Shown here: positions 4,003-33,236 of the stretch, piece by piece
Position numbering within the stretch: the stretch's first letter is position 1
Layout: the number at the start of each line of letters is the position of its first letter
Virus record (IMG/VR): IMGVR_UViG_3300000553_000167
Coordinates: 1 to 33,236 of that record
DNA: 33,236 nucleotides
Direction: 5' to 3' (one strand)
Source of the DNA: a virus
Program-made: the position numbers and the translations under genes
Notes under the pieces: model-generated
Databases searched by the model: none
Told to the model about the DNA's origin: nothing
What the model saw: the letters and a program-made list of their open reading frames with translations, nothing else

Positions 4003-5292
4003 CTAATCCATAGTATAGTGCGTGGCTAAAAAGTCCCTAGCATCTTGATCGTTCATTCCGTGTTCATTGCGTAAAGTATAATAAATCTTGTTGTATTCAT
4101 CGCCACTGTTTAATTTGAGAGGTGCGGCAACGGCGGCTTGGTCTTTTGCAGTTTGCTCGGTTACGTTAGAATAGGGAGTTTGTTCTTGTCCACTCCCCTG
4201 CTTTACTGTTGGCTGTCCGACTCTTTGGTCTTGCCATTGTTTAGATTCGAGATACCCTTTATAATCGGGATAACTTGTCGGGTCCACGGGGATAGGATTA
4301 AAATTTGCATCTAGTCTAGGTTTTTGTGATTTTAACCACGAATTATATGCATTAATTCTGTTTTGGTGGATTTTTGCAATTTGAGGATCTTCTTTAGTTG
4401 CAGTGTTTCTTGCTGCCTCTCTCGCCTGTTGTCCCGCAAGAGTCTGATCTTGTCCTCGCATAGCCACATCAGCCGTTAACTGATGTTCCGCGCTTATACC
4501 CTTGACAATCTTACTGCCGATAGGGACAAGTTTGCTGCCATCTTCGTTGTGCGCGTAGTACTGGATTCCGTCGCCCGTGTCTACTTTGTCGATAGACATT
4601 TTGTTTTCAGCCAAAAGGTCTTTGATTGCTGCTATATCGACCGGAGGTTTTCCAACTTGCGTCAATCCCCTATTAACCTGCATAATGGTTTTTAGCGCAG
4701 CAGAGCGATTGTCCGCGACTGACAAGTCTTTACCAATTACTTCATCAAGTTTCGGGTAAAGAGAATTGGCGTATTGATTCGCCGCGACGTTGTAATCCTG
4801 CTCAATCCGCTTATTTAGTTCCCCGTCGACAGCCGCCGCTGCCTGTGCATAAGTCATACCCCTTTGGCTTGTCAATTGTTTGATTGCGTCTGCGCGCATA
4901 GACTTGTATTGGCCGATTAAATCGGTTTTTACAGGTGCCTGCTGCTCTGGTTTATTTACTACTGGTTGCGTAACAGGAGCGGGAGAAAAAGACAAAGACG
5001 GCTCAGGTGCTTTATATCCTGTGGATAGATCAGGAGCCTGAAAATCATAGTTAGGCGTATTTTGCGGGAAAAACCCTTGTGAAGTTACAGGAACAATTGG
5101 CGCAATGTTAGGTTGAACCGTTTGCGGGGATTGAACTGGCTGTTGCTGAACTTGTTGCGTTCCGAGGTTTGACAGTGTATCGGCAATACCAGCCTGGTTA
5201 CGCATAGCCGCACTTCTGCCCAACAATCCCCCGATAACAGCCGCTATTCCTGCATATGGGTTGTCGGCCGGCCGTACAATTTGAATTGACAT
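4003..5292 (-). CDS. Structural protein, probable internal virion protein
   Basis: This is a 429-residue protein whose ATG overlaps the TAA of the preceding gene (TAATG). The N terminus has a glycine/alanine-rich segment (about residues 13-30), then a long Gln/Pro/Val-rich low-complexity stretch to about residue 115. The rest is mostly helical and charged, with Gln- and Ala-rich runs. Such composition is common in podovirus ejection proteins and tail-needle-associated proteins. It sits between the Hint-domain protein and the 1077-residue protein, and the three probably act together in the capsid or at injection. I recognise no named family. Confidence 0.5.
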   Translation of the reverse strand: MSIQIVRPADNPYAGIAAVIGGLLGRSAAMRNQAGIADTLSNLGTQQVQQQPVQSPQTVQPNIAPIVPVTSQGFFPQNTPNYDFQAPDLSTGYKAPEPSLSFSPAPVTQPVVNKPEQQAPVKTDLIGQYKSMRADAIKQLTSQRGMTYAQAAAAVDGELNKRIEQDYNVAANQYANSLYPKLDEVIGKDLSVADNRSAALKTIMQVNRGLTQVGKPPVDIAAIKDLLAENKMSIDKVDTGDGIQYYAHNEDGSKLVPIGSKIVKGISAEHQLTADVAMRGQDQTLAGQQAREAARNTATKEDPQIAKIHQNRINAYNSWLKSQKPRLDANFNPIPVDPTSYPDYKGYLESKQWQDQRVGQPTVKQGSGQEQTPYSNVTEQTAKDQAAVAAPLKLNSGDEYNKIYYTLRNEHGMNDQDARDFLATHYTMD

Positions 5293-6374
5293 TATCCAAG
5301 CCCCCTCACCAAGAAGCTATTAGCATAGTAACTATTCGTTCCGGTAGTTTTAAGATAATATACTTCCATGGACCCCGCAGGCTCTACAGAGATATTTTGC
5401 ATCCCTTCGGTAGTCAATACCTCTTGGCCGTCTAAATCTGCAGGAACAACACTCCCTGTACCTGTAACAAAGGGTTGCGTAGCTGTGGCGAATACTGCTC
5501 TTTGGTTCGTTGCAATGGTGAAACATTCTTTCGTTTCAGGAATGGCGATTTCGAGAACAGTTTCCCATAGACCAAGATATTTATCAGCAAAAACTTTATC
5601 GCCAACTGAAATATCTTCGATAGGCCTTTCTCCTGTTTCGGTAATAACAAAAGTTCCTTTAGCCAAACAAGAACCGGTTTGAATCTTTGCCGCTCCCAGC
5701 GAACCAACGGCACTTAGCAATCCACCATTACTAGGCTGAACTGCAATGTCAGGCTTAGATGCAATCCTCTGTTGAGCCATTGCTTGCCAAAGATTATTGG
5801 TATCAGCTTGTTGACCGGAAGCAAGTCCCAGCAGTTTCCCGGGAATATCGATAGAAGCGTTTTGTGCGGCGTTTTGCAATTCCATCGGCATACTAAGCAA
5901 GCCCCGTTGCTGTTCAATACTTGCCGATTGAGCATTGAGGTCGTTGTTATAGTTTGCGGTGAGTGCCTGGTTGACTCCTTGGCCGATGTTGTAGAACGAT
6001 TGTCCTGTAGGCGAACTGCCAAGAACACCCCTAGACATAAGATCATTAACAGCATTACCCATCGTTCCGGTTAATTGCTGGTTCATAATTTCTCGTTCGT
6101 TGGCAAGTCTATTTGGGTCTACTACTCCTGCTCCTACTTGCGCTGCCTGCCGTTGGAGGTCTTGCGCCCCTGCCGTTGCCGTTCCTGCCATTTGGGTATA
6201 ATCCACAGGAACAATTCCAGGATTGTCAAGAAGCATATTCGCGCCTCTTTGTTGTAATGCTAATGCAGTGGGAGCCGTTTTCTCAGCGAAATTGGCCTGA
6301 ACATCCTGCAATCTGGTTTCTTCCGGCGTCGGAGGTGCCGGTTGCGATGTGTAAGTAGAACCTTTTCCTCCCAA
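5292..6374 (-). CDS. Virion protein with C-terminal Hint (intein-like) domain
   Basis: The 360-residue protein begins at a TTG preceded by AGGGGGTG. Residues 1-230 are Gln/Ala/Asn-rich and helical, like an internal virion protein. From Cys236 to the C terminus is a Hint fold: GSCLAKGTFVITETGERPIE opens block A, IEDISVGDKV follows, block B contains TATQPFVT (297-304), then VPADLDGQEVLT, and the end reads SYYANSFLVRGLG. In Hint proteins Cys1 makes a thioester with the preceding residue. The usual block B His is Gln300 here, and the usual terminal His-Asn is Arg-Gly, so full splicing is not expected. N-terminal cleavage, transfer to a nucleophile, or loss of activity are all possible. Confidence 0.75.
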   Translation of the reverse strand: MGGKGSTYTSQPAPPTPEETRLQDVQANFAEKTAPTALALQQRGANMLLDNPGIVPVDYTQMAGTATAGAQDLQRQAAQVGAGVVDPNRLANEREIMNQQLTGTMGNAVNDLMSRGVLGSSPTGQSFYNIGQGVNQALTANYNNDLNAQSASIEQQRGLLSMPMELQNAAQNASIDIPGKLLGLASGQQADTNNLWQAMAQQRIASKPDIAVQPSNGGLLSAVGSLGAAKIQTGSCLAKGTFVITETGERPIEDISVGDKVFADKYLGLWETVLEIAIPETKECFTIATNQRAVFATATQPFVTGTGSVVPADLDGQEVLTTEGMQNISVEPAGSMEVYYLKTTGTNSYYANSFLVRGLG

Positions 6375-25915: not shown

Positions 25916-26413
25916 TTACCTCACTATCATTACTGATTTAGTCTGCCGCCCGAACTCTCGTGCCTCTTTTACCGCCATCATACCGACAAAAATATCTATG
26001 TGGTCGTCGCGCACCAATCCACCAGTATCAACGATTGTAACGATTCCAATGCCCGAAACTGCCAATCTGGTCCCCGCTGGATAAACGGCAGGGTCAGCAG
26101 CGGCCACTCGCCAGGCGTCGGCTTCGGTCAATATGTAGCCTGATGAGGTTACGCCATAGGTTGGATGATCGGGGCCCTTACCCGTACTTTCGGGGCCCGC
26201 AGTATAGGCGGTTATAGTCATGACGCGCCTTTGTACCGTGGGGCCCCTGCTTGCCCTGTCCAGCGCACGCAGCAGGTATTGGGTAGTTTGCTCTGCCTGT
26301 TGCCGTTCTGCGGCCTGAGCGATGCTGTGCGCAACGTAGGCGGGGGTTTGTGCAAAGACGTAGATTGACAGAGCGGCGGCTAGGAAGCAGGTGAGGATTA
26401 TGGCGCGGCTCAT
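25916..26413 (-). CDS. Secreted 3D-domain protein
   Basis: The 165-residue protein begins at ATG 26413, seven bases after GGGGG. Residues 1-21 are a membrane or signal segment (MSRAIILTCFLAAALSIYVF). From about 66 it reads as a 3D domain: TITAYTAGPESTGKGPDHP, TYGVTSSG, YPAGTRLAVSGIGIVTIVDT, GGLVRDDHIDIFVG, AREFGRQTKSVMIV, with D129, D137 and D140 as candidates for the three conserved Asp. The fold occurs in cell-wall lytic proteins (RlpA, MltA, YuiC). Its place in an early DNA-metabolism operon is odd. Confidence 0.75.
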   Translation of the reverse strand: MSRAIILTCFLAAALSIYVFAQTPAYVAHSIAQAAERQQAEQTTQYLLRALDRASRGPTVQRRVMTITAYTAGPESTGKGPDHPTYGVTSSGYILTEADAWRVAAADPAVYPAGTRLAVSGIGIVTIVDTGGLVRDDHIDIFVGMMAVKEAREFGRQTKSVMIVR

Positions 26414-26414
26414 A

Positions 26415-27413
26415 TTATTGCCCCCTCTCCATAATTGCGGCAAATATAGGCGCGGCTTGGGCTGGGACGCAACTATTTCCCAAACATTTTAGCCTCTTAG
26501 CCCTGTTCTTCTGCCCGGCGATGATGCGGGGCGGTTCGTAGGGGAATTGGCCCGTGTCTGAGTTGATGCAGTTACCAAGTTTAAGGGCGTGGCGCGTCCC
26601 TCGGTATTCCTTACCAAGTAAATCTCCACTTGTAGCGTCGAAACATTGCGGCGTTGGCCAATTACCAGCCCCCAATGGTGCAGGCCACCCCGGCCAGGGT
26701 TCGGGCGTGTCGCAGTCTAAATTAGTCCAGCCCAACGGAAAATTCATCAACAATTCGCACCAATCTGCCGATAACTGGCCGGAACATAACGCTTTCTGCT
26801 TTACCCAATGCCATTTCAAGCGTCGCCCTTGCGCCGGATCCGTCGTCTCGTCTAGTCCTCTGACTGTCGGTGTCGGCCAATTATTCGGCTGTACCATTCC
26901 CGGCAAGGCATAATTCCCGCGACTGTCCCGCTGATTTGGTCCGCCGTGTTCGCCGTCAGATGCGCGGGGCATCGGCCAGTTCTTGGCAACCTGCTCCAAC
27001 GTTGGCCCGAACTCAGGTGATGATTCGCCGCCGATCTTGTTGGCGCGGGGCGTGGGCCAAGCTTGCGACAATGAAGACCCTGTCCCTTTGATGCGGGGCG
27101 CCAACATCGGAAGCTCCATAGCAACACCAGCCAACACAATACCCCAGTGCGGCCAGGTCTGCGAGAACAGTTCCGAATCCTCCCCCGCCTCGCCCGGAAA
27201 CATCAGCAATTGACAAGAGCCCCCGGACATTTTCTGCCACCACCCAGAGTGGCTTAACTTCGCCAATGATACGGCGCATTTCTCCCCAAAGTCCGCTTCG
27301 GGTAACGTTCCCGTCGCTATCGCTGAAACCAGTTCTTTTACCTGCGCAGCTAACGTCTTGACAGGGTCAAGGGAACCCTCCGCAGACAATATCGATTCGT
27401 GCGTTTGGTTCAT
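26415..27413 (-). CDS. C5 methyltransferase C-terminal region, second frame
   Basis: This 332-codon frame begins at ATG 27413, inside the first methyltransferase fragment, and is shifted relative to it. It contains SQTWPHWGIVLAGVAMELPM (about 84-103), then QAWPTPRAN, NWPMPRASDGEHGGPNQRDS, NWPTPTVRG, CELLMNFPLGWTNL, and KCLGNSCVPAQAAPIFAAIM near the end, which reads like motif X of C5 methylases. The TWPRSG/WPTP pattern is familiar from phage methylase-linked proteins. The first 115 codons lie on top of motifs IV to VIII in the other frame. It may be a separate overprinted gene or the out-of-frame end of a broken enzyme. Confidence 0.6.
   Translation of the reverse strand: MNQTHESILSAEGSLDPVKTLAAQVKELVSAIATGTLPEADFGEKCAVSLAKLSHSGWWQKMSGGSCQLLMFPGEAGEDSELFSQTWPHWGIVLAGVAMELPMLAPRIKGTGSSLSQAWPTPRANKIGGESSPEFGPTLEQVAKNWPMPRASDGEHGGPNQRDSRGNYALPGMVQPNNWPTPTVRGLDETTDPAQGRRLKWHWVKQKALCSGQLSADWCELLMNFPLGWTNLDCDTPEPWPGWPAPLGAGNWPTPQCFDATSGDLLGKEYRGTRHALKLGNCINSDTGQFPYEPPRIIAGQKNRAKRLKCLGNSCVPAQAAPIFAAIMERGQ
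27013..27366 (-). pseudogene. C5 methyltransferase middle fragment after in-frame TGA
   Basis: In the same frame as the start fragment but beyond a TGA, this stretch reads PCQDVSCAGKRTGFSDSDG (motif IV, catalytic Cys intact), WVVAENVRGLL (motif VI), LADLAALGYCVGWCCYGASD and VGAPHQRDRVFIVAS (motif VIII), ending at a stop. There is no clear start of its own. It overlaps the second-frame ORF for its whole length. Confidence 0.65.
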
Positions 27414-27606
27414 CGGGCAACACCTCTTTCAGACTATCCGCTGTCAATAGGCGAATATCATCAAAAATAGGAACACCGGGGAACCGCAAGGAAAGGACTT
27501 GCTTTGCATAGGGGGCTATTTCACAAAAAGCAACCGTTTTAATTCCAGACATTTCGGCAGCAAGATCGAGACCTCCAACCCCTGCAAATAACGACAACAT
27601 GTTCAT
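27367..27606 (-). CDS. C5 DNA methyltransferase N-terminal fragment
   Basis: ATG 27606 overlaps the stop of the HNH gene (ATGA). The 79 residues hold motif I (NMLSLFAGVGGLDLAAEMSG), motif II (AFCEI), and end at DIVCGGFP, where a TGA interrupts just before the PCQ motif. Normally GGFPCQ is continuous; here six bases (TGACCC) come between Pro and the second Pro-Cys. The protein as written lacks the catalytic Cys and cannot work alone. Confidence 0.8.
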   Translation of the reverse strand: MNMLSLFAGVGGLDLAAEMSGIKTVAFCEIAPYAKQVLSLRFPGVPIFDDIRLLTADSLKEVLPDEPNARIDIVCGGFP

Positions 27607-27980
27607 TTTTTGGCAACCGCCTTTGCTTTGTTGTTTTTATGCCATTCGTGATGATGCTTTTGGCATAACCATCGTACAGACATGGGGAAATTATAGTCAT
27701 CGTGGTGCGCCTGAACCTCTCTCCTTCCATCTTGAAAAGTTCCGTTTGCCCCGCATTTTTCACACGGGGAAGGTATTAACGTTCCATTTCCGATTGCGGT
27801 TTCAACAATATCGTGAACTCTTCCATCCGCATGTGTCCCCCGGTAAAAATGATTTTCGGCCTTAAATTTCAATTGATTCCTGCGCGGAATATTTCTTACC
27901 CTTAAAATATCCCACATTGCCTGTCGTGTTACGTTGTAATATTCCGCTACTTTTTGGAGGGAAAATCCGGCTTGATACAT
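27603..27980 (-). CDS. HNH endonuclease with N-terminal HTH
   Basis: This 125-residue protein has an HTH at residues 7-30 (SLQKVAEYYNVTRQAMWDIL) and an HNH-type zinc domain: CEKC (73-76), VQAHHDDYNFP (89-99) and LCQKHHHEWHK (105-115). It is typical of small phage HNH proteins that cut or nick DNA. Codons before ATG 27980 are open back to the methylase stop (28014), so the true start might be non-standard. It ends one base into the C5 methyltransferase (ATGA). Confidence 0.8.
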   Translation of the reverse strand: MYQAGFSLQKVAEYYNVTRQAMWDILRVRNIPRRNQLKFKAENHFYRGTHADGRVHDIVETAIGNGTLIPSPCEKCGANGTFQDGRREVQAHHDDYNFPMSVRWLCQKHHHEWHKNNKAKAVAKK

Positions 27981-28013: not shown

Positions 28014-28862
28014 TCATAGGGCTAGTTCGGACTGTTCTGATGTTTCTTCGATACGATCTTCGTATTCTGCGAACATTTCTTCTTGAATCATGAGGTCAAA
28101 TTTCAGCATTTTATCCGTCGCCTCCCGATAAAACTTTTTGTCTACCTCGAACCCATAACAATGACGGTTTAATTCGGCGCAAGCCCTTAATGTGGACCCG
28201 CTGCCGGCACATGGGTCAATTACTACGTCCCATTCGTCAGTAAATATTTTGATCAACTGCTTTAATAGATTGACCGGCTTTTGCGTGGGATGAATTTTGG
28301 GATAATTTTGGGCGTTGTCCCGGTTCCACTCGAACCAGTTAAAGATCATCTTTTTATTGTTGTTGAACTTGGGCAGCTTATCCCGGTACAAAACTATTGC
28401 ATGCTCGACCGCTCCGACAATTTTCATGTTCGCTTTGAGAACTTGGGCAGAATAGTTTTTGATGAAATACAGGGGGTAACTCTTTTCAAACCCGCACTTT
28501 CTCCCGTTTTCAATAATCAGCGGAATTTGCTGGTGTGAGCAGAAGATGATCATCGCGGGAGATTGCCCTGCTTCTTTTGGCTCTTTTTTCAGTAACTTGC
28601 TGCAAAAATGGAAGTATTCAACGATGTTAAAATTGTTGTCAGTGTTGAAAAATTGTTTTCCGGCCTTCTCGCTTTCACCGTTTTTATTGTCGCCATCGGC
28701 GTACCATCTGGGATTTGAAGCATAAGCGTAATTCCCCAGGTTAAACGGTATGTCGGCTATAACCAATTGCGCTTTTGAAGGGATGCCATAGGATTTGTAG
28801 TTCTGAAAGTTGTCGTGGAACAATTGTATTTTTAGTTCTTTTTTATGCTGAGTTGATTCCAT
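28014..28862 (-). CDS. DNA methylase (beta class, DIPF motif)
   Basis: This 282-residue protein starts at ATG 28862, five bases after GGAGGG. Motif IV is DIPFNLG (37-43), where most relatives have DPPY; the next part has SNPRWYADGDNK and KQFFNTDNNF, as in phage N6-adenine methylases. Motif I comes last: HPTQKPVNLLKQL then DPCAGSGSTL (216-225), the beta-class order. It probably methylates adenine (or N4-cytosine), as protection from host restriction. The frame continues past its TGA into the HNH gene. Confidence 0.85.
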   Translation of the reverse strand: MESTQHKKELKIQLFHDNFQNYKSYGIPSKAQLVIADIPFNLGNYAYASNPRWYADGDNKNGESEKAGKQFFNTDNNFNIVEYFHFCSKLLKKEPKEAGQSPAMIIFCSHQQIPLIIENGRKCGFEKSYPLYFIKNYSAQVLKANMKIVGAVEHAIVLYRDKLPKFNNNKKMIFNWFEWNRDNAQNYPKIHPTQKPVNLLKQLIKIFTDEWDVVIDPCAGSGSTLRACAELNRHCYGFEVDKKFYREATDKMLKFDLMIQEEMFAEYEDRIEETSEQSELAL

Positions 28863-28863
28863 T

Positions 28864-29049
28864 TCATCCCTCCACCGCCGTATAAGCCTCATACCAGCCC
28901 TTTTCCGCATCGTGCTGCACCGGGCAAAGATACGGCCTTGGCACTTCCGTTGGCGTTAGACCTCTTGCCAGTATCAGGACAATGATTAGCTCCTGTGCTT
29001 CGGTGTAGGTAGCCGCTAGAACGCGGCTGGGGAAAAGAAATTTTGGCAT
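28864..29049 (-). CDS. Small early protein of unknown function
   Basis: A 61-residue protein, ATG 29049, eight bases after AAGGGAG. It has a hydrophobic stretch (AQELIIVLILARGLTPTEVP) and a C-terminal PRPYLCPVQHDAEKGWYEAY. Its end carries the ribosome site of the methylase gene, so they are coupled. Not recognised. Confidence 0.5.
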   Translation of the reverse strand: MPKFLFPSRVLAATYTEAQELIIVLILARGLTPTEVPRPYLCPVQHDAEKGWYEAYTAVEG

Positions 29050-33003: not shown

Positions 33004-33236
33004 TTATTCGCCTATTTTTGGTTCATAAACCAGAAACACGCCATCCACCGTCATGCAAATTGGCAGATATCCGAGTTCGCATATTTCGACCAGCGGCGCC
33101 CATGGATTGTCCCAGTCAAGCTTATCTTCGACGATAATATAGGCGGCATCCCTGGCGGCATCCCAGGCGGCATCCCTGGCGGCACCCCTGGCGGCATCCC
33201 AGGCGGCATCCCAGACGGCATCCCTGGCGGCATCCC
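33004..33236 (-). CDS. DAAWDAAR-repeat protein, 5' end cut by window edge
   Basis: This partial gene enters at the right edge and ends at a TAA (33004-33006). In this frame the tandem repeat reads as four-residue units DAA(R/W), giving an alanine-rich helix with regular Asp, Arg and Trp, followed by a globular end YIIVEDKLDWDNPWAPLVEI, CELGYLPICMTVDGVFLVYE and PKIGE. Proteins with WDAAWDAA repeats and this type of end are found in phages and bacteria; function unknown. The other open frame through the repeat (MPPG repeats) lacks the natural-looking end. Confidence 0.65.
   Translation of the reverse strand, partial: DAARDAVWDAAWDAARGAARDAAWDAARDAAYIIVEDKLDWDNPWAPLVEICELGYLPICMTVDGVFLVYEPKIGE
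33139..33236 (-). repeat. 12-base tandem repeat, eight units visible
   Basis: On the minus strand GATGCCGCC(A/T)GG repeats eight times with few changes (one GGT for GAT, one GTC for GCC, last unit ending TAT). The array continues past the window end. It encodes the DAA(R/W) helix. Confidence 0.9.

Follow-up and report, generated by a model that had tools for sequence, protein, structure and literature searches.

A phage C5-cytosine DNA methyltransferase locus predicted to encode two subunits in overlapping reading frames

When a phage C5 methyltransferase gene meets a stop codon at its catalytic motif and its last motifs continue in a different frame, does it represent a broken gene or two proteins? 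The locus that raises this question lies on the minus strand of the 33,236-base virus record IMGVR_UViG_3300000553_000167, the whole of which was analyzed and is here called the window. A sequence-only reading had correctly placed the locus at 26415-27606, with its second frame open from 27413, and inspection of the plus-strand frames of the locus revealed nothing there. We predict from the sequence, with a probability of about 0.7, that the locus encodes a two-subunit phage C5-cytosine DNA methyltransferase in two overlapping frames. An alpha chain (frame A) would be responsible for SAM binding and catalysis through motifs I–VIII, and a beta chain, starting inside alpha in the +1 frame, would contribute the variable (target-recognition) region, the WPTP units and motifs IX and X; by analogy with M.AquI, the two chains would assemble into one active enzyme. 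In the alpha frame of the window, a six-base insert introduces a TGA before the catalytic cysteine, with beta intact and both phases kept.

Both frames encode conserved protein (Table 1). Searched on its own, frame A, which runs from its ATG at 27606 through motif I, GGFP, the TGA, P-CQDVS, ENVRG and QRDRVFIVA to a stop at 27015-27013, matches PF00145 before (E=9e-13) and after (E=1e-21) the TGA, as well as phrog_363 on either side of it; all of the C5 catalytic motifs I–VIII are found in this frame, with the TGA immediately ahead of the catalytic PCQ. The other elements expected of C5 methyltransferases, motifs IX and X and the variable region, are present in frame B, which is open for 332 codons and reads TWPHWG, LAPRIKGTGSS, a series of WPTP/WPMP units, motif IX and motif X. 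In a separate search, residues 77-234 of this frame match positions 93-283 of phrog_1008 ("DNA methyltransferase", E=3e-17) and its motif X matches phrog_363. The gene that follows the methyltransferase (25916-26443, −) encodes a predicted 3D domain (PF06725) and shares its first 29 nt with the 3' end of frame B.

Table 1. Features of the methyltransferase locus (positions in the window).
Feature	Position	Strand	Basis
N4/N6 DNA methyltransferase gene, same cluster	28014..28910	−	PF01555, E=4e-25
Upstream gene, HNH-endonuclease-like, zinc-ribbon-like; 4-nt overlap (ATGA) with the alpha start	27603..27980	−	phrog_2340 endonuclease, E=1e-17
Frame A, putative alpha subunit, motifs I–VIII; in-frame TGA 27369-27367	27013..27606	−	PF00145, phrog_363, translation
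Frame B, putative beta subunit ORF, 332 aa, +1 of frame A; ATG with upstream AGAGG	26415..27413	−	phrog_1008, phrog_363, hhalign, start context
Six-base insert TGACCC between GGFP and CQD; makes the TGA, phase of both frames kept	27364..27369	−	Absent from L097 and L164
Inverted repeat CTTGAC-CCT-GTCAAG, 6 bp and perfect; the insert completes it	27357..27371	−	Read in the sequence
Alternative beta start, ATG within the alpha motif VI codons (GAA AAT GTC), giving MSGGSCQLLMFPGEAGE	27228..27230	−	ATG shared with L097 and L164
TWPHWG of frame B, over alpha codons just ahead of motif VIII	27141..27158	−	Translation; +1 model score 46.0 vs 12.3 for shuffles
Motif VIII (QRDRVFIVA), frame A; frame B also reads through it	27064..27090	−	Translation
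Motif IX, frame B, LSADWCELLMNFPLGWTNL	26718..26774	−	Translation
Motif X, frame B, LKCLGNSCVP, LKCLGNSCVPAQ	26457..26492	−	phrog_363 positions 283-314

Two starts appear plausible for beta, at 27413 and 27230. The first is preceded by a Shine-Dalgarno-like AGAGG and aligns with ATGs in the two nearest relatives of the locus, L097 and L164; the second is common to both of these (where it opens MSQDSC and MLQDSC, respectively), and the Asn codon AAT that creates it is found in 53% of the loci with a split layout (see below), compared to 22% expected. Alpha and beta overlap by 401 nt from the former ATG and by 218 nt from the latter. No frameshift site was found at 27040-27090, where both frames run straight through. 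Across the split loci, the alpha stops vary in identity (TGA, TAG or TAA) and in context, which makes separate initiation of beta likelier than a programmed shift; a fusion made by programmed frameshifting was rejected on the same ground, as no conserved stop context is seen.

Against L097 and L164, which have the identical two-ORF layout and an intact GGFPCQ, the window contains exactly TGACCC in addition, at 27369-27364. TGA terminates 15 of the 40 main ORFs of the window, the contig contains no tRNA genes and thus no suppressor tRNA, and the in-frame TGA occurs in no relative; stop-codon recoding of TGA was rejected on this evidence, and the combination of a recoded TGA and a frameshift, one of the possibilities raised by the sequence-only reading, finds no support in the usage of TGA as a stop or in the varied alpha stops of the split loci. 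Because TGA is a normal stop, with neither a suppressor tRNA nor a relative that shares it, the insert has probably inactivated the alpha chain of the window, or else the base calls are wrong. Inactivation of alpha with beta intact would be the simplest reading, and it would be recent because the rest of alpha is unbroken. That the six bases reflect a sequencing or assembly error, with alpha intact in the real virus, is a minority reading of appreciable weight, which agrees with the intactness of the remainder of alpha and of beta and with the GGFPCQ of the relatives; however, a clean, in-phase six-base insert that completes a perfect inverted repeat would be an atypical error, and the site is one that mobile elements use. 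Specifically, L151 (1590-3686) and L152 have an in-frame intein directly ahead of the catalytic cysteine, at the site of the window's insert, with a Hint domain, an intein-splicing domain and a LAGLIDADG-like domain; considering the L151 element, one may conjecture that TGACCC is a repair scar at a homing site.

Interruptions are also seen elsewhere in the family. In four loci from bacterial genomes (L334, L354, L381 and L382), alpha is broken by a stop and the +1 frame is open beyond it, the break of L381 being at motif IV too (GGFPC followed by the stop). In L370 (2994-3984), both frames switch near motif IV, alpha to +1 and the TWP frame to +2, as a one-base indel would make them do, whether by decay or by assembly error. 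Gordonia-type phage C5 methyltransferases (L126 and L143, both 2441-2994) have an in-frame insertion of ~180 codons after motif VI (ENVRGLLSATAHRP), in which no Pfam domain was found in L126, and other Gordonia phages have a gene annotated as a LAGLIDADG or HNH endonuclease within the methyltransferase.

Two-chain C5 methyltransferases are known from two restriction systems, and in one of them, M.EcoHK31I, the alpha gene also encodes the small chain in a different frame. In M.AquI of Agmenellum quadruplicatum, alpha contains motifs I–VIII and beta the distal variable region and motifs IX–X, while in M.EcoHK31I (YGGCCR) motif IX alone is in the second chain and motifs I–VIII and X are in the first; both enzymes need their two chains (PMC3404938). 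Compared by its described motif division, M.AquI is matched by the window, in which one ORF contains motifs I–VIII and another the variable region together with IX and X. The window may differ in its overlap, where beta and alpha share 218-401 nt, with beta in the +1 frame across motif VIII and the shared stretch under selection, and it does differ in having a stop at motif IV of its alpha frame. M.EcoHK31I, compared by description, resembles instead the nested relatives introduced below, whose +1 frame carries IX, with X in frame 0; unlike it, the window has motif X in beta too. Since the motif division of the window is that of M.AquI and the nested one that of M.EcoHK31I, and both of these are two-chain enzymes, the comparison favors the two-chain reading.

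How widespread is the arrangement? Compared at the DNA level with 50,697 phage records, the locus gave no match, and a search for related loci with the single beta sequence of the window found no relatives, so that alignments were needed. tblastn with frame B hit Mycobacterium, Gordonia and Arthrobacter phages, the matches lying in the +1 frame over annotated methyltransferases, and in Acinetobacter, Salmonella, Vibrio, Microcystis and Pseudomonas phages the +1 frame is open across nearly the whole methyltransferase gene; annotators call either frame, and some chose +1. Confirmed relatives number at least 550 among the matches listed from one viral-contig scan and 392 in bacterial genomes. All of the first 163 loci, most of them found via the +1 frame, have a methyltransferase match.

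Three layouts are distinguished: nested (IX in +1, X in frame 0), split (both in +1, as in the window) and single-chain (both in frame 0). The nested layout is found in 62 of 79 and in 67 of 80 loci; E. coli PT62 (L403) and a P22-like phage are among its carriers. In 32 split loci from viral contigs, phages and bacterial genomes, including the sequenced phages Orcanus and BellusTerra, alpha ends after motif VIII and a beta ORF with motif X follows in the +1 frame, the two overlapping by at least 182 nt. In a tree built from alpha catalytic domains, the window falls with L097, L164 and nested genes rather than with most of the other split loci, and motifs IX and X move between frames at least seven times; a single frame change between IX and X would, we infer, convert a nested gene into a split one.

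Selection on the +1 frame was assessed against a null model in which codons were shuffled within each gene among positions with the same amino acid, so that protein and codon usage were kept; the main sets, 79 related genes and 80 window-type genes, were both fetched by their methyltransferase frame alone. The 79 genes have 1.70 +1 stops per gene compared to 6.38 expected, and over catalytic-domain positions 41-172 there are none against 247.6 expected, the remaining ones being confined to the first and last segments; over motif VIII (141-172), the +1 frame is stop-free in 80 of the 80 window-type genes (0 versus 58.8 expected). Stops are not depleted in the +2 frame of the nested set, which even has a slight excess there, nor in the +1 frame of 810 flanking ORFs from the same contigs (ratios 0.95-1.01) or of 20 canonical single-chain C5 methyltransferases (139 observed, 137 expected). 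The +1 protein profile scores 275 on the real genes and 136 on their shuffles, with 79/79 genes beating all of their own shuffles, and the overlap of the window, scored with the +1 model of the nested lineage, reaches 46.0 versus a shuffle mean of 12.3 and maximum of 34.1 (0/500 reach the real value). The +1 frame is thus open and conserved beyond what frame A and codon usage impose, and selection keeps the overlapping reading open in hundreds of relatives. This strongly supports the genuine overprinted gene that the sequence-only reading had listed as one of its options; upstream of 27060, where a lack of conservation of the second frame had been named as the mark of simple decay, the +1 frame is conserved, and it is stop-free over motif VIII.

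General nucleotide conservation accounts for some of the HMM excess, for the +2 frame likewise beats the shuffles, less strongly (z 6.7 versus 10.3 for +1 in one set), as expected if selection on +1 holds the third positions of frame A. Because that selection also conserves the nucleotides read by +2, the latter is an imperfect null for the HMM test, and stop counts, flanking genes and canonical methyltransferases are better controls. In close pairs, the +1 protein is 57% conserved versus 55% for +2, and substitution counts by codon position are indecisive; selection is proven more firmly for the openness of the +1 frame than for every +1 residue.

In 14 genes that have motifs IX and X in frame 0, there are no +1 stops at positions 126-175, which cover motifs VI–VIII, versus 25.6 expected. 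Carriage of IX and X by beta does not on its own explain this openness, which points to a role of the TWP segment in addition to the carriage of the two motifs. The same 14 genes would fit a +1 product that is an independent overprinted protein, such as a regulator or a counter-defence factor, rather than a methyltransferase subunit; we consider this unlikely, since the +1 frame carries motif IX in the window, nested and split loci and motif X in the split ones, both of which the enzyme needs, and wherever the +1 protein occurs among the examined loci, the other frame encodes a methyltransferase. A wider and tentative proposal, possible but short of an even chance, is that phage and prophage C5 methyltransferases of this class are double-coded over most of their length, that the +1 product has a function beyond IX and X, and that the layouts interconvert by single frame changes.

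The beta ORF combines two kinds of sequence. The split beta proteins match the C-terminal halves of single-chain phage methyltransferases over the WPTP units and motifs IX and X (hhalign probability 100, E 2.6e-47), and the +1 protein of nested genes belongs to the same family as split beta (profile comparison, E 3.4e-27). The suggestion that the second protein was born from the motif VIII region holds for its TWP part, whereas the part with WPTP units and motifs IX and X is an ordinary single-chain C-terminal half. phrog_1008 (PHROGs, 329 positions) matches frame B, the frame-0 C-terminal halves of single-chain enzymes and the nested +1 frames alike, and PHROGs is silent on the fact that its first ~130 positions derive from a second frame laid over the catalytic domain of the methyltransferase; the Dcm-like families phrog_363, PF00145 and TIGR00675 share motifs I–VIII with frame A and differ in that TRD, IX and X lie in that same frame in their single-chain members. 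Modeled with AlphaFold, isolated beta (pLDDT 48) and a nested +1 protein (pLDDT 54) gave low-confidence, uninformative structures, and Foldseek returned no fold match for the beta model; one alignment of this structural work omitted rows taken from the annotated phage collection.

These comparisons bear on plain decay, in which a single-chain methyltransferase was broken by the TGA and a frameshift near 27060 and the family likeness of frame B is a shadow of frame A. Such shadow likeness is real, as the +1 model still gives 13-136 bits to related genes whose synonymous codons have been shuffled, and an in-frame TGA does stand ahead of the catalytic cysteine; yet the two-ORF layout recurs in the 32 other split loci, the stop depletion and score of the +1 frame exceed the shadow, and canonical C5 methyltransferases have no such effect, so that decay is improbable. 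Where a six-base insertion plus a frame change had been proposed as decay, the insertion is borne out by the nearest relatives and the frame change is contradicted by the identical layout of the split loci; the TGA is the one element of decay that survives. Bypass of the TGA, by a peptidyl-tRNA-Pro hop from CCU over UGA to CCC that would restore GGFPCQ and an active alpha or by read-through, is very improbable and the hop itself speculative, for although the CCU-UGA-CCC flanks suit it and a small hairpin can form there, the fold around the inverted repeat is unexceptional (z −1.3), TGA is an ordinary stop in the window, where no tRNA gene is found, and the feature is in no relative.

Among the relatives, the two-frame layout proves to be frequent in phages and prophages, where annotators have mostly overlooked it, and it explains the phage "TWP/WPTP" family phrog_1008. 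With no stops against ~248 expected, the locus class is among the cleaner examples of long double coding on one strand in prokaryotes. Our literature searches, which covered few subscription papers, turned up no account of this overlap in phages, and the extent of the double coding and the strength of selection on it appear to be unreported.

Two further features of the window lie away from the locus. A probable tail or structural protein (5292-6374, −) has Hint-like sequence at its end (CLAKGTFVITETGERPIEDISVGDKV; Hint_2, E=6e-5, under the curated cut-off), and tandem units of ~15 nt (GGCGGCATCCCTGGC-like) occupy 33140-33236 (+), where the right-hand contig boundary cuts them off.
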